This document shows positions 10,244 through 60,388 of a stretch of 64,000 bases of DNA, piece after piece. This stretch comes from Microbacteriaceae bacterium PS02068 (lineage in GTDB: Bacteria > Actinomycetota > Actinomycetes > Actinomycetales > Microbacteriaceae). Each line of letters begins with the position of its first letter. The first letter of the stretch is position 1. Under the pieces are notes generated by a model. That model saw nothing but the letters and a program-made list of their open reading frames with translations, was not told where the DNA came from and searched no databases. The translations under genes were made by a program, and so were the position numbers. The stretch is taken from the NCBI GenBank assembly GCA_029959325.1, contig JASCPF010000007.1, positions 1-64,000 of the forward strand, in the 5' to 3' direction.

Positions 10244-11599
10244 GTGGCACAGGCATCCGCGCTCTTCCAAGGTCAGACTCCGCTGGCCGTGCGGATGCGG
10301 CCCACGTCGCTCGACGAAGTCGCCGGCCAGGCGCACCTGCTGCGACCCGGGTCGCCGCTGGTGGGGCTCGCCGACCCCGCCGGCAACACCAAGAACGCCG
10401 TCTCGGTGATTCTGTGGGGCCCGCCCGGCACCGGCAAGACGACGCTCGCGCAGGCGATCGCGCGCACGTCGGGCCGCCGCTTCGTCGAACTGTCGGCGGT
10501 GACGGCGGGCGTCCGCGATGTGCGCGAGGTGATGCAGGACGCCATGACGCAGCGCGACCTCTACGGGGCATCCACGATCCTCTTCCTCGACGAGATCCAC
10601 CGCTTCACGAAGGCGCAGCAGGACGCGCTGCTGCCCGGCGTCGAGAACGGGTGGGTGATCCTGATCGCCGCGACGACCGAGAACCCCTCGTTCTCGGTGA
10701 TCTCGCCGCTGCTCTCGCGCTCGCTGCTGCTGACGCTGCAGCCCCTCACCGACGAAGATCTCGGGCTGCTCATCGATCGAGCCGTCGAGGATTCGCGGGG
10801 CCTCGCCGGCGCCGTGCGGCTCGACGCCGACGCGCGCGCCGCGATCGTGCAGCTCGCCTCGGGTGACGCGCGGCGGGCGCTGACCTCGCTCGAGGCAGCC
10901 GCGTCGATGGTCGACCCTTCGACAAGCTCAGGGACCGGGGGAGAGTCAGGGACCGAGGCTCTGCCGGTGATCACGGCGGAGCTCGTCGCGCAGGCGGTCG
11001 ATCGCGCACTGCTGCGCTACGACAAGCAGGGTGACGAGCACTACGACGTCATCAGCGCGTTCATCAAGTCGATCCGGGGGTCCGACGTCGACGCCGCCAT
11101 CCACTACCTCGCGCGCATGATCGAGGCGGGGGAGGATCCGCGTTTCATCGCGCGGCGACTCGTGATCTCGGCATCCGAAGACATCGGCCTCGCCGACCCG
11201 CAGGCGCTCGTCATCGCGGTCGCGGCGGCCGACGCGGTCGCCTTCATCGGCATGCCCGAGGGGCGCATCCCGCTCGCCGAGGCGACGGCCTATCTCGCCA
11301 CGACGGCGAAATCCAACGCGGCGTATCTCGCGATCGACCGCGCGATCGCCGATGTGCGCGCGGGGGGCTTCGGGCGCGTGCCGGTGCACCTGCGCGACGC
11401 GCACTATCCCGGGGCGAAGCGGCTCGGGCACGGCAAGGGCTACGTCTACCCGCACGACCTCGAGGTCGGCGTGGCGACGCAGCAGTACCTGCCCGACGAG
11501 CTGAACGGCCACCACTACTACGAGCCGACCGGCCGCGGGCTGGAGCGCGACATCGCCGCGCGCGTCGAGAAGATCCGCAAGATCCTGGGCGAGTCGTGA
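10244..11599 (+). CDS. rarA: Replication-associated recombination ATPase RarA (MgsA)
   Basis: AAA+ clamp-loader-like ATPase that acts at stalled replication forks. 451 residues: Walker A GPPGTGKTT near residue 60, Walker B LFLDEIHRF near 112, sensor I AATTENPSFSV, and the C-terminal tetramerisation region (YDVISAFIKSIRGSDVDAAIHYLARM and GKGYVYPHD). Residues about 224-240 (DPSTSSGTGGESGT) have no counterpart in the family as I know it and are coded by a family A repeat at 10915-10936 inserted in frame. The GTG start follows a -10 element directly, and the stop overlaps the next gene (GTGA). Confidence 0.95.
   Translation: MAQASALFQGQTPLAVRMRPTSLDEVAGQAHLLRPGSPLVGLADPAGNTKNAVSVILWGPPGTGKTTLAQAIARTSGRRFVELSAVTAGVRDVREVMQDAMTQRDLYGASTILFLDEIHRFTKAQQDALLPGVENGWVILIAATTENPSFSVISPLLSRSLLLTLQPLTDEDLGLLIDRAVEDSRGLAGAVRLDADARAAIVQLASGDARRALTSLEAAASMVDPSTSSGTGGESGTEALPVITAELVAQAVDRALLRYDKQGDEHYDVISAFIKSIRGSDVDAAIHYLARMIEAGEDPRFIARRLVISASEDIGLADPQALVIAVAAADAVAFIGMPEGRIPLAEATAYLATTAKSNAAYLAIDRAIADVRAGGFGRVPVHLRDAHYPGAKRLGHGKGYVYPHDLEVGVATQQYLPDELNGHHYYEPTGRGLERDIAARVEKIRKILGES
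10915..10936 (+). repeat. Family A dispersed repeat, inside rarA
   Basis: Contains the core CCCTTCGACAAGCTCAGG followed by GACC. It is read in frame as DPSTSSGT. A partial second copy (TCAGGGACCGAG) follows within 20 bases. Other copies lie at 26707, 34773, 39076 and 54635 (reverse). Confidence 0.85.
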
Positions 11600-34770: not shown

Positions 34771-36101
34771 ATCTTCGACAAGCTCAGGAGCCGGTGACGG
34801 TCGTCCGCGGAGCACGACTCAGCGGCACGGATGCCACCGACCTGATCGTCGCGGGCGGCGTGATCGCCGAGGTCGGCACCGGCCTCAGCCGCGCCGGGGC
34901 GACCGTGATCGATGCCGACGGGCTCATCGCGCTGCCCGGCCTCGTCGACCTGCACACGCATCTGCGCGAACCCGGCTACGAGGCATCCGAGACGATCCTC
35001 TCGGGTTCGCGTGCGGCAGCCGCCGGCGGCTACACGACCGTCTTCGCGATGCCGAACACCTCCCCGGTCGCCGACACCGCGGGTGTCGTCGAGCAGGAAC
35101 TCGCCCTCGGCGAAGCCGCCGGCTACGTGCACGTGCAGCCCATCGGCGCGGTCACGGTCGGCCAGAAGGGCGAGCGACTCGCCGAGCTCGGTGCCATGGC
35201 ATCCTCTCGCGCCCGCGTGCGCGTCTTCAGCGACGACGGCTTCTGCGTCTTCGATCCGCTCATCATGCGGCGCGCGCTCGAGTACGTGAAGGCGTTCGAC
35301 GGAGTCGTCGCCCAGCACGCGCAGGATCCGCGCCTGACCGAGGGCGCCCAGATGAACGAGGGCACCGTCTCTGCCGAACTCGGCCTCGCCGGCTGGCCCG
35401 CGGTCGCCGAAGAGTCGATCATCGCGCGCGACGTGCTGCTCGCCGAGCACGTCGGCTCGCGGCTGCACGTCTGCCACCTCTCCACGGCGGGGTCGGTCGA
35501 CATCATCCGCTGGGCGAAGAAGCGGGGCGTGAACGTCACGGCCGAAGTCACGCCGCACCACCTGCTGCTCACCGAAGAGCTCGTGCGCGGCTACGACGCG
35601 CGCTTCAAGGTCAACCCGCCGCTGCGCCGCGACGAAGACGTCCAGGCCGTGCGCGAAGGGCTCGCCGACGGCACGATCGACATCGTCGCGACCGACCACG
35701 CCCCGCACCCCGCCGAGAGCAAGTCGTGCGAGTGGCAGGCCGCGGCGAACGGGATGGTGGGCCTCGAATCGGCGCTGCGGGTCGTCCACCAGGCGATGGT
35801 CGAGACCGGCCTGATGACCTGGGAGGACGTCGCCCGCGTGATGTCCGCCGCTCCGGCACGGATCGGCCGGCTGGACGATGCCGGCACGGCGCTCGTCGAA
35901 GGCGCCCCGGCATCCTTCACCCTCTACGACGCGGCACCCGTGCGCACCTTCGAGCGGGGCGACCTGCGCGGGCTCAGCGTCAACTCGCCCTACCTCGGGC
36001 GCGAGTTGCCGGGAGAGGTCCGCTGGACGTTCTTCCGCGGCGCGCCCACGGTGGCGGAGGGCCGTGTGGCCGAGACGATGTCGGCGGGAGACGCCGCATG
36101 A
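34767..36101 (+). CDS. pyrC: Dihydroorotase
   Basis: Zinc-dependent cyclisation of carbamoyl aspartate. 444 residues; metal motif [12 protein letters not shown] near residue 54, [15 protein letters not shown], the later ligand regions [12 protein letters not shown] and TDHAPHP. The N-terminal residues [10 protein letters not shown] are coded by a family A repeat (34773-34792), so the start region has been replaced or extended by repeat DNA; the first conserved residues begin at [12 protein letters not shown] overlaps on both sides. Confidence 0.96.
34773..34792 (+). repeat. Family A repeat at the pyrC start
   Basis: CTTCGACAAGCTCAGGAGCC, five bases after the A of the pyrC ATG, codes LRQAQEP. 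Matches the rarA and carB copies over the core CTTCGACAAGCTCAGG. Confidence 0.75.
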
Positions 36102-36658: not shown

Positions 36659-37845
36659 CCTCCTCCTTCTCCCTCGACCCCGCAGTGCTGGTGCTCGAAG
36701 ACGGCTCGCGCCACCCCGGCCGCGCCTACGGCGCGCGCGGCACGACGCTCGGCGAAGTCGTCTTCGCGACCGGCATGACCGGCTACCAGGAGACCCTCAC
36801 CGATCCCTCCTACGCCGGCCAGATCGTGCTGCAGACCGCGCCGCACATCGGCAACACCGGCATGAACGGGGAAGACGTCGAGTCGCGCCGCATCTGGGTC
36901 GCGGGCTACATCGTGCGCGACCCCTCGCGCATCGTGTCGAACTGGCGCTCCGAAGAGTCGCTCGACGACGCGCTCGTCCGCGACGGCATCGTCGGCATCT
37001 CGGGCATCGACACACGTGCGATCACGCGCGTGCTGCGCTCGGCCGGCTCGATGCGCGGCGGCGTGTTCTCTGGCGACGCCGCAGCACTGGATGCCGACGA
37101 GCAGCTGCGCATCGTCCGCGACGCCCCGCAGATGGAGGGGCGGAACCTGTCGGCCGAGGTGTCGGTCGCGAGTGTCGAGGTGACCCCCTCGACCGCGCAG
37201 GGCGGCGAGCGCATCGGCAACCTCGCGGTGCTCGACCTGGGCGTCAAGCAGGCGACGATCGACAACCTGGCCGCGCGCGGGTTCGACGTGCATGTCCTGC
37301 CGCAGGACGTCACGATCGAGGGCATCCGCGCCATCGACCCCGTCGCCGTCTTCTATTCGAACGGGCCCGGCGACCCCGCGGCATCCGGCGATCACGTCGC
37401 GCTGCTGCGTGCAGTGCTCGATGAGCGCCTGCCCTTCTTCGGGATCTGCTTCGGCAACCAGCTGCTGGGCCGCGCGCTCGGCTTCGGCACCTACAAGCTG
37501 CCGTTCGGGCACCGCGGGATCAACCAGCCGGTGCTCGACAAGCAGACCGGCCGCGTCGAGATCACGGCGCACAACCACGGCTTCGCCGTCGATGCACCCC
37601 TCGAGGGCGAAGTGGACAGCCCGAACGGCTACGGCCGTGTCGAAGTGAGCCACATCGGCTTGAACGACAACGTCGTCGAGGGCCTGCGCGCCCTCGACAT
37701 CCCCGCGTTCTCGGTGCAGTACCACCCCGAGGCCGCCGCCGGCCCGCACGACGCCAACTACCTCTTCGACCGCTTCCGCGACCTCGTTCGTGAAGACGTG
37801 TCGACTCGCTCCGCTCGCTCAACGACCGAGGACACCAATGCCTAA
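36655..37845 (+). CDS. carA: Carbamoyl-phosphate synthase small subunit
   Basis: Glutaminase subunit that feeds ammonia to CarB. 396 residues from ATG 36655 (overlap with the previous gene). Class I amidotransferase triad: nucleophile Cys in [16 protein letters not shown] and His/Glu in [11 protein letters not shown]. The N-terminal domain has [15 protein letters not shown]. The C-terminal tail [19 protein letters not shown] is coded by a family B repeat (37795-37828) and is unlikely to be ancestral. Overlaps carB by 8 bases. Confidence 0.96.
37795..37828 (+). repeat. Family B repeat, left inverted copy flanking carB
   Basis: 34 bp starting GACGTGTCGACTCG and ending GCTCGCTCAACGACCG, at the end of carA. 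The reverse complement of 41151-41184 matches it at 31 of 34 positions; the differences are confined to four central bases (CTCC here, TTAG there). Confidence 0.9.
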
Positions 37846-40800
37846 GCGCACCGACATCAACAGCGTCCTCGTGATCGGGTCGGGCCCGATCGTGATCGGC
37901 CAGGCGTGCGAGTTCGACTACTCGGGCACCCAGGCCTGTCGCGTGCTGCGCGAAGAGGGCGTGCGGGTCATCCTCGTGAACTCCAACCCGGCCACGATCA
38001 TGACCGACCCCGACTTCGCCGATGCGACCTACATCGAGCCGATCACCCCCGAGGTCATCGAGACGATCATCGCGAAAGAGAAGCCGGATGCCATCCTGCC
38101 GACCCTCGGCGGCCAGACGGCGCTGAACGCCGCGATGGCACTGCACGAGCAGGGGATCCTCGAGAAGTACGGGGTCGAGCTGATCGGCGCGAAGGTCGAC
38201 GCGATCCGCAAGGGCGAGGACCGCCAGATCTTCAAGCAGCTCGTGCTCGACGCCGGCGCCGACGTCGCACAGTCGGTCATCGCGCACACGATGGACGACC
38301 TGCTCGCCGGAGCGGCTGAGCTCGGCTACCCGCTCGTCGTGCGTCCGTCGTTCACGATGGGCGGGCTCGGCTCGGGCTTCGCCTACAACGAGGAAGACCT
38401 GCGCCGCATCGGCGGCGCGGGACTGCGCGACTCGCCGACGACCGAGGTTCTCCTCGAAGAGTCGATCCTCGGGTGGAAGGAGTACGAGCTCGAGCTCATG
38501 CGCGACACCGCCGACAACACGGTCGTCGTCTGCTCGATCGAGAACGTCGACCCCGTCGGCGTGCACACGGGCGATTCGATCACGGTCGCACCCGCGCTGA
38601 CGCTCACCGACCGCGAGTACCAGAAGCTGCGCGACATCGGCATCGACATCATCCGCGCCGTGGGCGTCGACACCGGCGGCTGCAACATCCAGTTCGCCGT
38701 CGACCCGGCATCCGGCCGCATCATCGTCATCGAGATGAACCCGCGCGTCTCGCGCTCGTCGGCGCTCGCGTCGAAGGCCACCGGATTCCCGATCGCCAAG
38801 CTCGCCGCGAAGCTCGCCATCGGCTATCGCCTCGACGAGGTGCCGAACGACATCACCAAAGCGACGCCGGCCAGCTTCGAGCCGACGCTCGACTACGTCG
38901 TCGTGAAGGTGCCGCGGTTCAACTTCGAGAAGTTCCCCGCCGCCGACAACACGCTGACGACCACCATGAAGTCGGTGGGCGAGGCGATGGCGATCGGCCG
39001 CAACTACACGACGGCGCTGCAGAAGGCCCTGCGCTCGCTCGAGAAGCGCGGGTCGAGCTTCCACTGGGGCCCGCGCCCTTCGACAAGCTCAGGGACCGAA
39101 TTGTCGGTCGACGAGCTTCTCGAGATCGCCAAGAAGCCGACCGACGGCCGGATCGTCGTGCTACAGCAGGCGATGCGCTTCGGCGCGACCGTCGAGCAGG
39201 CGTTCGAGGCCACCAAGATCGACCCGTGGTTCCTCGACCAGATGGCGCTCATCAACGAGGTCGCCGCATTCGTGCAGGATGCCTCGGAGCTCGACGCCGC
39301 GACCCTGCGCCTCGCCAAGGAGCACGGCTTCAGCGACGCGCAGCTCGCGCAGCTGCGCGGCATCTCCGAGGCTGACGTGCGGGGCATCCGCTATGCGCTC
39401 GGCATTCGCCCGGTCTACAAGACGGTCGACACGTGCGCGGGGGAGTTCCCCGCCCTCACGCCGTACCACTACTCGAGCTACGACTACGAGACCGAGGTCA
39501 CGCCGAGCGATCGGCGGAAGGTCGTCATCATCGGGTCGGGCCCGAACCGCATCGGGCAGGGCGTCGAGTTCGACTACTCGTGCGTGCACGCGTCGTTCGC
39601 GCTGTCGGATGCCGGCTACGAGACGATCATGGTCAACTGCAATCCCGAGACGGTCTCGACCGACTACGACACGAGCGACCGGCTCTACTTCGAGCCGCTG
39701 ACCCTCGAGGACGTCCTCGAGGTGCTGCACGCCGAGTCGCAGTCGGGCACGATCCACGGTGTCGTCTGTCAGCTCGGCGGCCAGACGCCGCTGGGCCTTG
39801 CGAAGGGCATCGAGGACGCGGGCTACACGATCCTCGGCACGTCGCCCGCCGCGATCGACATCGCCGAAGAGCGCGAGCTGTTCTCGCAGCTGCTCGACCG
39901 CGCCGGGCTCATCGCGCCGCGCCACGGCACGGCCGTGAACGAGGCCGAGGCCGTCGCGATCGCCGAAGAGATCGGCTACCCCGTGCTGGTGCGCCCGAGC
40001 TTCGTGCTGGGCGGTCGCGGCATGGAGATCGTCTACGACACCGCGAGCCTGCGCGACTACTTCGTGCGGACGGCGGGCGAGGTCGTCATCGAGCCCGGCA
40101 AGCCGCTGCTGGTCGACCGCTTCCTCGACGACGCGGTCGAACTCGACGTCGACGCACTGTACGACGGCACCGAGCTCTACATCGGCGGCGTCATGGAGCA
40201 CCTCGAAGAGGCCGGCATCCACTCCGGCGACTCGTCGTGCACCCTGCCGCCCGTCTCCCTCGGCCGCACCGAGATCGATCGCGTGCGCGAAGCGACCCTC
40301 GCGATCGCCGAGGGCGTAGGCGTCCGGGGCCTGCTGAACGTGCAGTTCGCCGTGTCGGCGGGCGTGCTCTACGTCATCGAGGCGAACCCGCGCGCGAGCC
40401 GCACGGTGCCGTTCGTGTCGAAGGCCCTCGGCATCCCGCTCGCGAAGGCGGCGAGCCGCATCATGGCGGGCTCGACGATCGCCGAGCTCAAGGCCGAGGG
40501 CATGCTGCCCGCGCAGGATGGATCGCGCGTGCCGCTCGACTCGCCCGTGGCGGTGAAAGAGGCGGTGCTGCCGTTCAAGCGGTTCCGCACGGCCGACGGG
40601 CACACCGTCGACTCGGTGCTGGGCCCCGAGATGCGCTCGACGGGAGAGGTCATGGGCATCGACCGCGACTTCCCGACCGCCTTCGCGAAGAGCCAGGCCG
40701 CGGCGTACGGCGGCATGCCGACGTCGGGGACAGTCTTCCTGTCGGTCGCCGACGACGACAAGCGCGCCGTCATCCTGCCGGCGCACCGCCTGCAGGAGCT

Positions 40801-41170
40801 CGGCTTCCGCATCATCGCGACCGAGGGCACCGCCGAGATCCTCTCGCGCAACGGCATCCGCGTCGACGTCGTGAACAAGTACTCCTCCACCCAGCAATCG
40901 GGGGAGCGCAACGTCGTCGACCTCATCAACGCGGGCGAGATCGACATCGTCGTGAACACCCCGTCGGGCGGCATCGCGCGCGCCGACGGCTACGAGATCC
41001 GCGCGGCGGCCGTGGCTGCCGACAAGGCCCTCTTCACGACGATGGCCGTGCTCGGCGCGGCGGTCAGCGCCATGCCGGCGCTGCGCGAGGGCTTCTCCGT
41101 GCGCAGCCTGCAGGAATACGCCGAGGATCGCGCTGCACGGAAGGCGGGACCGGTCGTTGAGCGAGCCTAA
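37838..41170 (+). CDS. carB: Carbamoyl-phosphate synthase large subunit
   Basis: Makes carbamoyl phosphate for pyrimidines and arginine. 1110 residues from ATG 37838. Two homologous ATP-grasp halves: the first starts [22 protein letters not shown], the second [20 protein letters not shown] near residue 565; the C-terminal MGS-like allosteric domain ([18 protein letters not shown]) follows. Between the halves, residues about 412-422 ([10 protein letters not shown]) come from an in-frame family A repeat. The last codons VERA and the stop come from a family B repeat. The gene is flanked exactly by inverted family B copies. Confidence 0.96.
39076..39097 (+). repeat. Family A repeat, inside carB
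   Basis: CCCTTCGACAAGCTCAGG followed by GACC, identical over 22 bases to the rarA copy. Read in the same frame (PSTSSGT), in the loop after the first ATP-grasp half. Confidence 0.88.
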
Positions 41171-41184
41171 CGAGTCGACACGTC
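41151..41184 (-). repeat. Family B repeat, right inverted copy flanking carB
   Basis: Inverted partner of 37795-37828 (31/34 identical). On the plus strand it reads CGGTCGTTGAGCGAGC then CTAACGAGTCGACACGTC. Its variant central bases create the carB TAA stop, and its TTG is the apparent pyrF start codon. Confidence 0.9.
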
Positions 41185-49047: not shown

Positions 49048-50613
49048 TCAGTCCCAGCGCACGATCGGCGGATCGACCGTGAAGTCGACGAGCGGTGCGC
49101 CGAGGCTGGGGAGGAAGAGGAACGAGCAGCCGGTCTTGCGCTGACCGTCGACCTCGCAGTCCGCCGTGACGTCGAGCCCCCCGATGTAGGGCCCGCGCAC
49201 CTGTCCGGGATCGCCGAACAGCTCGTCGGGCTCGAGGTTGGCGAGCTTCGCCGCCCCGTCAGCACGCAACGTGCGCGTGATCGTCCCGTCGATGATCTTC
49301 GTGCCGTCGCTGAGTGTCTCGGGCAGGTCGATCCCGCAGCCGGCGACGAGGTTCTTCGAGGCCAAGCAGGTGTCGACGGCGCTCTGAACAGTGCTCCGGA
49401 ACACCGCGAGCCCCGCGTCGCTGAGCTCAACGGTGGCATCCAGGCCCAGAGAGTAGTCGTCGGGGTCGCTGGCGATGACCGAGGTCGTGCCCGAAAGGGT
49501 GTAGTTGGGGTTGTCGATCGCGAGAGCGACGACACCGGGGAACACGGTGATCATCTCGTCGTCGAGTGCGACGCCGTTGATCGTCGGGTTCAGTCCCTTG
49601 AAGTCCGACCCGACGTAGAGGTCGATCGTGCCGCGATAGACCTTCCAGCTGCCGTCCCCCTCGAAGTCGACGACCTTGAACGTGCCGCTCACCGGCTCGC
49701 CACCGACCGTGTAGTCCACGCTGACGGAGACCTGCGAGTCGCTCGCCGACACCTTCGGCGCCGTCACCACGATGTCGTCGATCGCGCCTTCCTTGAGCGA
49801 TGCGGCGAGCACCTTCTTGGTGAGCAGAGTCGAGTCGCGCGGCTTCGAGTCGAGCAGTTTCAGTGCTTTCGCACTGTCACCGGCAGCCACCGCGTTCAGA
49901 TAGTCGGTGACGACGCTCTTGGGGTCGGAGCCCCCGGAGTCTCCGCCGGCCCCCGCTCCCGTCCCGGCCCCGGCGCCGCGGGCGGCGAACACGACAGCCA
50001 GGATGATGGCGAGCAAGACGACGACGCCACCCGCGATGATCCCGATGAGCGCGCCAGTCGGGAGCTTCTTCCGCGGGGCGCCCACGTCACCGGGCTGCGG
50101 CGCAGCGTAGCCCTGCGGAGCGGCGTAGCCCTCGGGCGCAGCGTAGCCCTGCGGAGCGGCGTACCCCTGCGGAGGAGCGTAGCCCTGGGGGGCGGCATAC
50201 TCCTGCGGCGCCGCGTACCCCTGGGGGGCGGCATAGCCCTGGGGTGCGATGGCGTCGGCCTGCGGCGCGGCATACTCCTGCGGCGCGGGCTGCTGCGCAG
50301 CGTAAGGAGGAAGGGATGCCTCCGCCTGCGGCGCGGCATACTCCTGCGGCGCGGGCTGCTGCGCAGCGTAAGGGGGAAGGGATGCCTCAGGCTGCGGTGC
50401 GACCTCCGGCTGCGGGGCGGCCTCCGCCTGCGGCGCGACCTCGGGCTGCGGCGCGACCTCGGGCTGCGGCGCGACCTCGCTCGCCGGGGGCGTGACCGCC
50501 TCAGCGCGCGGCATCCACTGTTCGGCGGCGGCATCCCAGCGGAATGCTCCCGACACCCACTCGCCGCGCTCCGCGTCCCATACCGGCGCCTCGCCCTGAC
50601 CGTTCCCGCTCAT
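49048..50613 (-). CDS. Proline-rich repeat, single-span membrane protein
   Basis: 521 residues from ATG 50613 with AAAGG upstream. Residues 1-35 hold a W-rich motif ([25 protein letters not shown]). Residues about 45-175 are Pro/Ala/Gln repeats: EVAPQP units, two copies of a 22-residue unit (66 bp), and GYAAPQ units. One membrane helix near 190-213 ([21 protein letters not shown]) precedes a Gly-rich linker and an extracellular beta-rich domain of about 300 residues with paired cysteines ([25 protein letters not shown]). Type II-like surface protein; function unknown. Confidence 0.85.
50060..50500 (-). repeat. Coding tandem repeats in the proline-rich protein gene
   Basis: Blocks of 15-18 bp units coding GYAAPQ-like hexapeptides at about 50095-50260, an exact-looking 66-bp tandem duplication at 50271-50336 and 50337-50402 (a few substitutions), and 18-bp units coding EVAPQP at about 50395-50480. 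Length change by slippage is plausible. Confidence 0.8.
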
Positions 50614-54582: not shown

Positions 54583-54995
54583 CCGACACCACCACACCGG
54601 TCCCTGAGCCCACACCGGCTCCTGAGCCCACACCGGTCCCTGAGCCTGTCGAAGGGCGCGTGACCTTCAACGCCGACGGGCTGGTTCCCGCGATCATCCA
54701 GCAGCACGACACCGGCGAGGTGCTCATGCTGGGCTGGATGGATGCCGAGGCGCTCCGCCGCACCCTCACCGAGGGCCGCGTGACCTTCTGGTCGCGCTCG
54801 CGGCAGGAGTACTGGCGCAAGGGCGACACCTCGGGCCACGCCCAGTACGTGAAGGGCGCGCGCCTCGACTGCGACGGCGACACGCTGCTGATCGCCGTCG
54901 AGCAGATCGGCGCGGCCTGCCACACCGGCGACCGCACGTGCTTCGATGCCGACGACCTCACGCCGGTCGTCGGTCAGGTCGAAGGCGTTCCGTGA
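54579..54995 (+). CDS. hisI: Phosphoribosyl-AMP cyclohydrolase
   Basis: Third step of histidine synthesis. 138 residues. The conserved enzyme starts at about [41 protein letters not shown] and [10 protein letters not shown] hold the zinc ligands. The first 26 residues are a repeat-derived [18 protein letters not shown] extension: three 18-bp units from a family A repeat and partial copies. GTGA overlap with the next gene. Confidence 0.95.
54597..54656 (-). repeat. Family A repeat plus two partial copies at the hisI start
   Basis: 54635-54656 is a full reverse-orientation copy (GGTCCCTGAGCCTGTCGA then AGGG, one mismatch to the rarA copy). Two partial copies precede it with an 18-bp period (54597-54614, 54615-54632), coding proline-glutamate repeats in frame. 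Confidence 0.85.
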
Positions 54996-56676: not shown

Positions 56677-57941
56677 CCACCAGCAGCCTGCGCGACCAGC
56701 ACGGACCCTTCTTCGGCGAGTTCGGCGGGCGCTACATGCCCGAGTCCCTCATCGCCGCGATCGACGAGCTCACCGCCGAATACGAGGCCGCCAAGGCCGA
56801 CCCGGCGTTCGCCGCCGAGCTGACCGCGCTGCTGCACTCGTACGCCGGTCGCCCGTCCGCACTCACCGAGGTCGCCCGCTTCGCGGAGCACGCCGGCGGC
56901 GCTCGCGTCTTCCTCAAGCGCGAAGACCTCAACCACACCGGCTCGCACAAGATCAACAACGTGCTCGGCCAGGCGCTGCTCACCAAGCGCCTGGGCAAGA
57001 CGCGCGTCATCGCCGAGACCGGCGCAGGCCAGCACGGCGTCGCGACGGCGACGGCTGCGGCCCTGTTCGGCTTCGAGTGCACGATCTACATGGGCGAGGT
57101 CGACACCGAGCGCCAGGCCCTGAACGTCGCCCGCATGCGTCTGCTCGGCGCCGAGGTCGTGCCCGTCACGACAGGCTCGCGGACGCTCAAGGATGCCATC
57201 AACGAGGCCTACCGCGACTGGGTCGCCTCGGTCGAGACGACCAACTACATCTTCGGCACCGCCGCGGGCCCGCATCCGTTCCCGGCGATGGTGCGCGACT
57301 TTCAGAAGATCATCTCCGAAGAGGCGCGTCAGCAGCTGCTCGACGAGACCGGCCGGCTGCCCGACGCCGTCATCGCGTGCGTCGGCGGCGGCTCGAACGC
57401 GATCGGCATGTTCGACGCGTTCCTCGACGACGAGGGCGTGAAGCTCTACGGCGTCGAGGCCGCCGGCGACGGCGTCGACACCGAGAAGCACGCGGCGTCG
57501 ATCGAGCGGGGGCGCCCCGGCATCCTGCACGGCGCGAAGACGTACGTGCTGCAGGACGAAGACGGCCAGACGATCGAGTCGCACTCGATCTCTGCGGGTC
57601 TCGACTATCCGGGCGTCGGCCCCGAGCACTCCTGGCTCTCCGACATCGGCCGCGCCGAGTACATCCCCGCCACCGATGCCGAAGCGATGGATGCCCTGCG
57701 CCTCCTGAGCCGCACCGAGGGGATCATCCCGGCGATCGAGTCGGCGCACGCCCTCGCGGGCGCGCTGCGCATCGGGCGCGAGCTCGGACCCGATGCCATC
57801 CTCGCGGTGAGCCTCTCGGGCCGCGGCGACAAGGACATGGACACGGCCGCGCAGTGGTTCGGGCTGTACGACGACGGTGACGGACCGGTCGACGCCGCCC
57901 CGCCCGCGGCCGCCGCCAAGGGCGAGGGGACCGAGCTGTGA
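56673..57941 (+). CDS. trpB: Tryptophan synthase beta chain
   Basis: PLP enzyme joining indole and serine. 422 residues from GTG 56673. [16 protein letters not shown] at the N-terminus, PLP Lys93 in [35 protein letters not shown] (phosphate loop), and [19 protein letters not shown]. Overlaps both trpC and trpA by 4 bases, supporting stoichiometric TrpAB production. Confidence 0.97.
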
Positions 57942-58720
57942 GCCGCGTCTCCGACGCCATCGAGGCGGCGCACGCCGAGGGTCGCGGCGCGTTCGTGGGG
58001 TACCTGCCCCTCGGCTTCCCCGACCTGCAGACGAGCATCGACGCCGCCGTGGCCCTCGCCGAAGCCGGTGCCGACATCCTCGAGCTCGGCCCGCCATATT
58101 CCGATCCGGTCATGGACGGCACCGTCATCCAAGAGGCGACCCAGGCCGCGCTGGCCGGGGGTTTCCGGCTGCGCGACACGTTCACCGCGGTGCGCGAGAT
58201 CGCCGCTCGCACCGACGTGCCGATCCTCGTGATGACGTACTGGAACCCCGTGCTGCAGTACGGCGTCGACCGCTACGCCGACGATCTGCTCGCCGCCGGG
58301 GGAGCGGGCCTCATCACCCCCGACATCACGCCCGACGCCGCGGCGGAATGGATCGCGGCCTCCGAGCGCACGGGACTCGACCGCGTGTTCCTGGCGGCGC
58401 CGACCTCGACCGAGGAGCGCCTGGCGATGATCGCCGAGGCATCCACCGGCTTCGTCTACACCGTGTCGACCATGGGCATCACCGGCGAGCGGGCCGAGTT
58501 GGATGCCGCGGCGCGCACCCTCGTCGGGCGCCTGCGCGAGCACGGCGTGGCGCATGCGTGCGTCGGCATCGGCATCTCGACGCCCGACCAGGTGGCCGGC
58601 GTCGTCGACTACGCCGACGGCGCGATCGTCGGCACCGCGCTCGTCCGGGCTCTCCGCGACGGCGGAATCCCCGGCCTCGCCGCCGAGGCACGCGCCCTGG
58701 CATCCGGCACCGCCCGCTGA
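57938..58720 (+). CDS. trpA: Tryptophan synthase alpha chain
   Basis: Cleaves indole-glycerol phosphate and channels indole to TrpB. 260 residues from GTG 57938. Catalytic Glu49 and Asp60 in [33 protein letters not shown], and phosphate loop GIGISTPDQ. Last gene of the trp block; family B repeat DNA begins right after its stop. Confidence 0.96.
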
Positions 58721-58721
58721 C

Positions 58722-58843
58722 CCGTTTCGACTCGCCGCGCTCTGCGTTTCGACTCGCTGCGCTCGCGGGGCGACCGGTTGGTGGGGCGCCCCCGGGCGCC
58801 CCGCGAGGGAGCGAAGCGACCGAGTCGAAACGTCCGCACCTGT
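58722..58843 (+). repeat. Family B composite repeat, left of the GIY-YIG gene
   Basis: Two tandem 22-bp units (58722-58743, 58744-58765) with the core GTTTCGACTCGCTGCGCTC, then a GC palindrome (GGGGCGCCCCCGGGCGCC region) and the inverted arm GCGAGGGAGCGAAGCGAC with CGAGTCGAAACGTCCGCAC. Most of the second part recurs almost identically at 59275-59352. Non-coding. Confidence 0.88.
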
Positions 58844-58875
58844 GGACTATCGATACCAAGCCCGCGCTCGATCGA

Positions 58876-58887
58876 TAGCGTCGCGCC
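58876..58887 (+). promoter_or_regulatory. -10 element of the GIY-YIG gene (leaderless start)
   Basis: TAGCGT at 58876-58881, six bases before ATG 58888. Confidence 0.45.
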
Positions 58888-59184
58888 ATGCCTTTCGTCT
58901 ACATGCTGCTGTGCGCCGACGACACGCTGTACGTCGGCAGCACGCTCGATCTCGAGCGACGCCTTGCGCAGCATCAGGCGGGGGAGGGCGCCATGTACAC
59001 CCGCCGGCGGCTGCCCGTGTCGCTGTTCTGGAGCGAGGAGATGGCCCGCATCGACGATGCGTTCGCCTGGGAGAAGCGCATGCAGGGATGGAGCCACGCC
59101 AAGCGCATCGCCTACGCGGAAGGCGGGATCGGCGCCGTGAAAGGCTGGAGCGCACGTCAGCGGGCCCGGCCACGGGAAGAGTGA
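58888..59184 (+). CDS. GIY-YIG nuclease-domain protein
   Basis: 98 residues, a single GIY-YIG domain of the UPF0213/YhbQ type: VYM at residues 4-6 and YVG at 15-17 stand for GIY and YIG, the catalytic Arg is R24 or R25 (DLERRLAQH), and the metal-binding Glu is probably E62 ([11 protein letters not shown]). Such small proteins are probably DNA- or RNA-cleaving enzymes; cellular target unknown. The gene is enclosed between direct composite copies of family B repeats and separates trpA from lgt. Confidence 0.88.
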
Positions 59185-59186
59185 GG

Positions 59187-59274
59187 GCGTTGCGACTCGC
59201 TGCGCTCTGCGTTTCGACTCGCTGCGCTCTGCGTTTCGACTCGCTGCGCTCTGCGTTTCGACTCGCTGCGCTCG
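59187..59274 (+). repeat. Four tandem 22-bp family B units
   Basis: Units at 59187-59208, 59209-59230, 59231-59252 and 59253-59274, consensus GCGTTTCGACTCGCTGCG then CTCT. Unit 1 has one change (TTGCG for TTTCG); the last unit ends CTCG. Only two such units precede the GIY-YIG gene on the other side. Confidence 0.92.
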
Positions 59275-59375
59275 CTCAACGACCGGGTGGTGGGGGCGCC
59301 GCCCGGGCGCCCCGCGAGGGAGCGAAGCGACCGAGTCGAAACGTCCGCACTTGCTGTGCTCGCGGGGCGACCGGG
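59275..59375 (+). repeat. Family B composite repeat, right of the GIY-YIG gene
   Basis: CTCAACGACCGGG, a GC palindrome (GGGGGCGCCGCCCGGGCGCC), then GCGAGGGAGCGAAGCGAC and CGAGTCGAAACGTCCGCAC, same orientation as the left copy. A further fragment (CTCGCGGGGCGACCGG) follows at about 59359-59374. With 59187-59274 and the lgt promoter it accounts for the 235-base gap. Confidence 0.88.
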
Positions 59376-59419: not shown

Positions 59420-60388
59420 GTGCTTTCCTCCGCCCTCGTGGTCGCCTCGATCCCCAGCCCGTCGATCAGCTCGTTCCAGCTCGGGCCGCTGACGATCCAC
59501 TTCTACGCCCTGTGCATCCTCGCGGGGATCATCGTCGCGGCGATCATGACGAACCGTCGCCTCACCGCACGCGGCGCCGAGCCGTGGGTCGTCATCGACA
59601 TCTGCCTCATCGCGGTGCCGCTCGCCATCATCGGTGCGCGCATCTTCCACGTGGTGACGCACTGGGGCTTCTATTTCGGCCCCGGCAAGAACATCGCGGC
59701 GATCTTCTACATCTGGGAGGGGGGCATCGCGATCTTCGGCGCCCTCATCGGCGGCGCGATCGGCGCGTGGCTCGGCTGCAAGTGGACGGGCGTCCGGTTC
59801 TGGAGCTTCGCCGACGCCCTCGCGCCCGGCCTGCTGCTGGCTCAGGCCATGGGCCGGTTCGGCAACTGGTTCAACCAGGAGCTGTTCGGCACGCCGACCG
59901 ACCTGCCCTGGGGCCTGCAGATCGACTACCCCAACGCGGCGTGGCCCGTGGGACTGCCGGAAGGCACGCTCTTCCACCCGACCTTCCTCTACGAGGTCAT
60001 CTGGAACTCGCTCGGCGTGCTCTTCCTGCTGTGGGTCGGCAAGCGCTTCACACTGCAGTGGGGGCGCCTGTTCGCGCTCTACCTGGTCTGGTACAGCGCG
60101 GGCCGCATCGTCTGGGAGAACATCCGCATCGACCCGAGCGAGGTCTTCTTCGGCCTCCGCACCAACGTCTGGGCGGCGATCTTCGGCGTGATCGTCGGCA
60201 TCGTGATCTTCTTCGTGCAGACGCGGCGCCACCCGGGCCTCGAACCGTCGCCCTACCAGCCCGGTCGCGAGTGGACCGGCGGCGGGACTGTACAATCGCA
60301 GAATACCGATGACTTCGTGGACGTCAGCGCACCCCCGACGCCCGGATCCATCACGGACACCGCCACAAGCACAGTCGCCTCGAAGTAA
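59420..60388 (+). CDS. lgt: Prolipoprotein diacylglyceryl transferase
   Basis: Transfers diacylglycerol to the lipobox Cys of prolipoproteins, such as the one at 23993-24490. 322 residues from GTG 59420. Seven or so membrane helices; signature [21 protein letters not shown] near residue 145-165, [11 protein letters not shown], and an N-terminal [13 protein letters not shown] with the conserved H-x-Y. The C-terminal ~50 residues are a hydrophilic Ser/Thr/Pro tail. trpA-lgt-gltB is an actinobacterial order, here interrupted by the GIY-YIG cassette. Confidence 0.96.

Follow-up and report, generated by a model that had tools for sequence, protein, structure and literature searches.

A small GIY-YIG nuclease gene enclosed by palindromic repeats that match its clade: a probable enzyme-repeat pair in Microbacterium

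The window analysed here is a stretch of 64,000 nucleotides from Microbacteriaceae bacterium PS02068, whose genome is assembled as 3.49 Mb in 190 contigs. Its trpA-lgt gap measures 699 bp and holds a gene for a 98-residue GIY-YIG protein together with two composite repeat blocks (Table 1). A preliminary description of this DNA had placed the gene between such blocks, and they are there: the two share a 52-nt direct repeat and a related 83-nt repeat (58723-58805 versus 59232-59314, 82% identity), and 22-nt tandem units occur twice upstream of the gene (at 58723 and 58745) and four times downstream (at 59188, 59210, 59232 and 59254). The gene order trpA-lgt-gltB given earlier was confirmed by Pfam for trpA and lgt; gltB is a sequence reading of the next open reading frame, which runs from 60436 to beyond 64000, resembles glutamate synthase and lay outside the Pfam run. 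With up to 3 mismatches allowed, the terminal arm GAGCGAAGCGACCGAGTCGAAACG matched twice in the window, both times exactly, and 0 times in 100 shuffles, and CGTTTCGACTCGCTGCGCTC matched 7 times against 0.02 expected.

Table 1. Genes and repeat units in the window
Feature	Position	Strand	Remark
trpA, left neighbour	57938..58720	+	Pfam
Upstream composite block	58723..58842	.	inverted family-B unit pair around GC palindrome
Family-B unit variant	58745..58777	-	CGCCCCGCGAG replacing CGTTGAGCGAG
52-nt direct repeat, left copy	58791..58842	+	
Family-B variant unit	58797..58832	+	ends CGAGTCGAAACG
GIY-YIG nuclease gene, 98 aa	58888..59184	+	ATG at 58888, stop ends 59184; Pfam
Downstream composite block	59188..59353	.	
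Three tandem family-B 22-nt half units	59188..59253	-	
Complete family-B unit	59254..59286	-	CCGGTCGTTGAGCGAGCGCAGCGAGTCGAAACG; sole unit at locus fitting full tagged motif
52-nt direct repeat, right copy	59302..59353	+	98% identical to left
Family-B variant unit	59308..59343	+	ends CGAGTCGAAACG
lgt, right neighbour	59420..60388	+	Pfam
Solitary family-A unit	10915..10937	-	
Solitary imperfect family-B unit	37795..37828	-	just before carB
Solitary complete family-A unit	39076..39098	-	inside carB, whose reading frame continues through it
Solitary imperfect family-B unit	41151..41184	+	carB end
Solitary family-A unit	54634..54656	+	CGGTCCCTGAGCCTGTCGAAGGG

The protein belongs to the GIY-YIG nuclease superfamily by its Pfam domain (PF01541, E 2.1e-15; T5orf172 matched below threshold only), its conserved columns and its structural model and PDB match. 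Y5, Y15, G17, H29 and E62 are invariant in an 11-row alignment and R25 is nearly so, residues to which we presume a catalytic role. An AlphaFold2 model (pLDDT 88) was closest to the PDB entries 1zg2 and 1ywl, which were also the top PDB matches by sequence (E 1.3e-20 and 2.1e-16, respectively); these UPF0213-type proteins, whose chains are named hypothetical proteins, resemble it in fold and length. Pfam gave no match to a Y1/HUH domain. A reading as a homing endonuclease was dropped, as the gene is free-standing, no intron was seen and one domain was found in the 98 residues, which leaves neither a separate DNA-binding domain nor an intron or intein setting. We also dropped a defence role (best PADLOC E 0.012, no PHROGs match) and cargo of plasmids or phages, with 12 and 23 matching records, respectively, all below 60% identity.

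The repeats extend well beyond the locus. Across the source genome, half units of the repeat at the gene (family B) matched 81 times with at most 1 mismatch, against 0 matches for a reversed control pattern, and the core of a second repeat (family A) matched exactly 76 times. A second small GIY-YIG gene, decayed by an in-frame TAA, lies on contig C115 with family-A repeats around it. Within the window two imperfect family-B units, one inverted relative to the other, bracket carB, and the gene-free copies reported earlier are thus real, if thin, being these two single units. The family-A unit within carB is read in frame, so A-type repeats can occupy coding sequence. By eye, a family-A-like repeat at 34771-34793 overlaps an apparent gene start, and an 18/66-nt tandem repeat array occupies 50093-50473. 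At the nuclease gene, three of the four main family-B units (58745-59343) have CGCCCCGCGAG instead of the usual CGTTGAGCGAG; this sub-variant, which is without the first GAG, also occurs at four solitary sites (L240, L242, L243 and L245) and could represent a new specificity, a decoy or a copy that is drifting.

The gene might have been an oddity of this locus, but a GIY-YIG alignment search of 149 Microbacterium genomes found the kind to be widespread, with 79 hits in 65 genomes. Four repeat families were distinguished around them: A (CTGAGCYTGTCGAAG), B (CGTTGAGCGAG..CGAGWCGAAACG, in full form CCGGTCGTTGAGCGAG(n)CGAGTCGAAACG), C (GAGTAG..TATCGARACC) and D (CTGAGCGAG..CGAGACGAAGG). A protein tree was built from 73 rows, six fragments (L187-L192) being excluded from it and from the set of 146 loci used below. 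Within 700 bp of these 73 genes exactly one family was present in 66 cases, two (B and some D) in 2 and none in 5. Placed on the tree, the 68 family labels (given on a single match in L131, L158, L160, L167 and L179) change 3 times, the minimum for four labels; when unlabelled rows were counted as a fifth group there were 8 changes, compared with a shuffled mean of 35.3.

Such a pattern could in principle arise by passive hitch-hiking, in which repetitive extragenic palindromes (REPs) would accumulate wherever intergenic gaps are long and be inherited with the gene, the enzyme being unrelated to the repeat. Shared descent alone gives some clustering on a tree, and REP-rich gaps without a gene do exist, such as an array in genome G079 and A-like units in G022 at a site that is occupied in G097. 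However, the family tracks the clade inside single genomes. Eleven genomes contain two tree-placed genes, always of different clades. Ten of these show, beside each gene, the family that belongs to its clade; in the remaining one, G092, nothing from the four families lies within 700 bp of the B-clade gene. The other gene's family was found beside a gene in 0 of 11. The same is true at one shared site, rsmG-parA (18 loci forming a single-linkage cluster with both flanks homologous, the neighbours being named by Pfam in L144), where 12 loci are labelled C, 4 are labelled B (L160 on one match) and 2 are unlabelled. The match between clade and family can therefore be separated from shared surroundings. 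Moreover, for 41 of the 79 loci no other locus has both flanks in common, and for 26 not even one flank is shared, some flanks being short. In 20 control loci with long GIY-YIG genes, chosen by frame length and not checked singly, none of families A-D was found. We accordingly regard hitch-hiking as improbable. Copies of GTTTCACGTGAAAC, which we take to be parS-like, lie near family genes L008, L010, L011, L133, L160, L167, L169 and L191.

The repeats near these genes share a recognisable plan. In the 600-bp flanks of 146 loci, namely those of L034-L192 with distinct first 70 residues, every hairpin was listed whose 4-nt arms are complementary, with the 3-nt cores left free. GAG/CGA, counted with its own reverse complement, headed the list of 4017 core pairs: its 752 hits are spread over 141 of the 146 loci, the flanks of the other 5 having none, compared with 93 hits in 55 loci at 900-1500 bp. 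As the motif was first noticed in these same loci, its rank is not an independent result. Since bare cores turn up as background about 0.5 times per kb, one hit at a locus says little, and a threshold of at least three hits was passed by 113 of 146 loci near the gene and by 7 of 133 far from it. The two arms of the stem covary: among the eight arm types that are commonest among complementary hits, 657 of 810 combinations were complementary, where 131 would be expected if the arms were independent. Arms of every sequence are preceded by a tag. Per arm type, 89-100% of the units have G at -3 and 66-100% have T at -1, and near genes 572 of the 752 core hits carry G-N-T, 441 of them as GGT. The tagged motif has these 572 hits in 130 of 146 loci, versus 38 hits in 19 loci at 900-1500 bp and a single hit in the control loci of long GIY-YIG genes. 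The window locus fits the strict form of the motif once only.

This structural argument rests on the covariation of the arms, as hairpin stability failed for the A, B and D units and was rejected as an argument there. Folded as single-stranded DNA, the C unit was more stable than its shuffles (z -4.09), and single units of A (z 0.33), B (-0.40), D (0.73) and a fifth type (-0.27) showed no extra stability over theirs. A stable hairpin is consequently not established for family B of the window. Taken together, the matching of clade and repeat suggests that the enzyme recognises the repeat, and its coupling with covarying tagged units argues for the same.

Core hits were not enriched near low-scoring homologues from the phylum (25 loci, 14 hits near versus 12 far) or near viral homologues (32 loci, 3 versus 1), which again speaks against hitch-hiking. 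At least one tagged unit was found in 17 of 19 loci taken as non-actinobacterial, where single units could be chance, and three more high-scoring loci of the phylum sample had words of 20-79 nt common to both sides of the gene. Repeats of the form TTCTGAG...CGAAGAA adjoin distant phylum homologues (L353, L348 and L339), hinting that enzyme-repeat pairing may extend past the close family.

Copy number follows the gene as well. Across the 149 related genomes, compared with no genome tree applied, the median number of family-A matches was 92 in the 21 genomes with an A gene versus 1 in the 128 without; for family B it was 49 (35 genomes) versus 2 (114), and for family C 5 (16 genomes) versus 0 (133), the clade of three fragments (one A, two C) having been taken from the adjoining repeat. 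Medians were 3, 2.5 and 0 for A, B and C where only another clade's gene was present, and 0.5, 2 and 0 in genomes without any gene. Repeats without the gene are nonetheless common, as 17 genomes have at least 25 B matches and no B gene and 12 have as many A matches and no A gene, which we tentatively read as gene loss. In five genomes the B gene goes with fewer than 10 B matches, a shortfall that may in part reflect repeat variants missed by the search pattern. The repeats are also concentrated at the gene: in a hand count over 17 genomes (leaving out G134 and three genomes with C sites and no C gene), 44 of 93 family-C sites lay within 1 kb of the single C gene or fragment, and the upstream and downstream 500-bp flanks had a common word of at least 12 nt in 127 of 148 loci, versus 22 of 116 for control stretches 1000-1500 bp out.

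These counts bear on two further explanations. The repeats could mark the boundary of the nuclease gene or regulate it, as a terminator or an autoregulatory site would, having been duplicated locally and with the genomic copies as by-products. Dense repeats on both sides fit this, as does their frequent inversion, the nearest units being oriented + upstream and - downstream in 70 of the 109 loci that have both; yet in many genomes tens to hundreds of copies are dispersed far from the gene, and the tag and covarying stem are widely common to the units, which makes this explanation very improbable. Alternatively, another agent may spread the repeats, for example DNA uptake or a hidden Y1 transposase; the nuclease may then police or restrict DNA that bears them, as is reported for the Ssn nuclease of Neisseria (below). 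To our knowledge, GIY-YIG enzymes form no covalent transposition intermediate, so it is not obvious how one could drive the spread of a repeat by itself. Decay of the gene (in-frame stops in 4 of 79, one of these four among the six fragments set aside) and the occurrence of repeats in genomes without genes would also suit a policing role. The presence of the gene goes with high copy number, however, which is the reverse of simple removal, and we consider policing possible but rather unlikely.

The mobility of the cassette was examined at three sites. At trpA-lgt, 29 of the 148 matching relatives' loci were examined; 28 held both genes, and in all 28 the site is empty, trpA and lgt being 1-173 bp apart. 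The preliminary description had proposed looking here for an empty site with one repeat copy. The site was empty; a repeat was not seen, as none of families A-D was found at trpA-lgt in the 28 relatives, not even as one solitary copy. Insertion into a pre-existing REP at trpA-lgt is without support, because no relative viewed has a repeat there. A 1.5-kb insertion (about 853-2370) lies between trpA and lgt in G096 (L223), with a 438-residue open frame that reads as IS110-like in sequence.

The solitary unit was found elsewhere. On the tree, the window gene's nearest homologue is L124 of G097, which by our own reading lies beside ribH. At this site the closest relative, G096, lacks the gene; one solitary B-like unit, two differences away from the consensus, stands there. 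Among 27 relatives with both flanks (29 were fetched), G096 alone has a B match; G022 has an A match and G084, by eye, a degenerate A-like unit. On the homing trait of a gene inserting at its own recognition site, the two sites differ: G096 has one solitary REP at this place, and trpA-lgt has none. The difference between G096 and G097 may be either an insertion into a REP or a loss by recombination between REPs. At a third site, that of G100, the 14 of 29 relatives that were examined comprise one with the gene (G088), one with a gene-free array of A units (G079) and 12 with neither. A palindrome, GAGTGTCCAAGACAC...GTGTCTTGGACACTC, fills the gap at this site in L302, L305, L306 and L309-L314, and is either a terminator or another repeat family. 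The trpA-lgt site empty in 28 of 28, the many occupied sites and the one empty site with a solitary repeat support the earlier view of the gene as a mobile cassette.

In summary, we favour the reading that the window gene encodes a sequence-specific GIY-YIG nuclease that forms a pair with its own REP family and has been dispersed together with it, and put its probability at roughly 0.7. The preliminary description had likened the locus to REPs with a GIY-YIG nuclease in place of a Y1 transposase, and this receives strong support from the clade-family match, copy number and concentration at the gene; a gene standing at its locus without repeats in most relatives, or repeats just as dense beside random genes with gene presence and repeat number unconnected across genomes, either of which would have spoken against it, was not what we found. 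Binding, cutting, strand state, repair route and mobility are what we infer from here on. The substrate of the window nuclease would be the surrounding family-B REP, CCGGTCGTTGAGCGAG(n)CGAGTCGAAACG, enzyme and repeat being a matched pair that would have diverged together. The repeat unit is an imperfect palindrome: it has a 5' G-N-T tag, its 4-bp stem varies and its asymmetric GAG/CGA element is conserved. The enzyme most likely reads the tag and the GAG/CGA element on single-stranded DNA, arising in replication or DNA uptake, say, and cuts there. The gene would be dispersed as a REP-gene-REP cassette, most simply by a nick or break at a REP that is repaired from a REP flanking the cassette, leaving the gene enclosed by repeats at its new place. 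Spread by such REP-to-REP repair would account for both the enclosure by repeats and the G096/G097 pair.

No described system of this kind had been known to the preliminary description; one probably exists. Site-specific single-stranded nucleases of the GIY-YIG superfamily (Ssn) are said to act in Neisseria together with NTS repeats, reportedly modulating natural transformation there, and to have many homologues with differing specificities. By this description Ssn resembles the window system in combining a small GIY-YIG protein with a dispersed cognate repeat, and it is probably the same kind of system and its right home; by analogy, cutting of cognate single-stranded sites is the most likely activity here. 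The system described here differs in its occurrence in Actinomycetota, in having several families in one genus, in a gene enclosed by its own repeat, and in the plan of tag, stem and core with covarying arms. New here may be that plan, the strict clade-repeat match within a genus and the empty site with a solitary REP.

Two other systems come close. The REPtrons or REPINs of REP/RAYT (TnpA_REP) systems consist of short imperfect palindromes, often in inverted pairs, that adjoin a cognate gene, and enzyme and repeat co-evolve (PMC3116915, PMC8266576). The window system is like them in a gene flanked by repeats and in the dispersal of the repeats; RAYT systems have a GTAG tag and a Y1 (HUH) transposase, whereas here the tag is G-N-T and the enzyme GIY-YIG, so that enzyme and tag exclude identity. 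CGTC-tagged REPs, to which neisserial dRS3 repeats belong, are tagged palindromes of several phyla for which the authors found no dedicated transposase, and the word 'Actinobacteria' is absent from their text (Di Nocera 2013, PMC3733652). As described there, they have a CGTC tag and an 8-9 bp stem starting A-T, unlike the G-N-T and GAG/CGA found here, and identity is excluded by tag and stem. Among the titles and abstracts listed, GIY-YIG nucleases were not found together with REPs (the main Ssn paper lay outside that literature); in the literature searched no one paper contained both 'GIY-YIG' and 'repetitive extragenic palindromic', and six repeat words were absent. Tentatively, the units may belong to a wider super-family of tagged REPs (G-N-T, covarying stem, GAG/CGA) in Actinomycetota, Bacteroidota and other phyla that is served by a dedicated GIY-YIG nuclease and no transposase, gene and repeats spreading together by 'REP homing', a nuclease-triggered repair between one REP and the next.

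Looking forward, REP families without a known transposase gain a candidate enzyme; what mobilises REPs that have no dedicated transposase was left open by Di Nocera and colleagues (PMC3733652). The natural enzyme-repeat pairs, with A, B, C and D in one genus and two in one genome, form a direct test set for specificity. If these pairs are confirmed, the plan of tag, stem and core would make it possible to predict such an enzyme's cognate site from the sequence adjacent to its gene.
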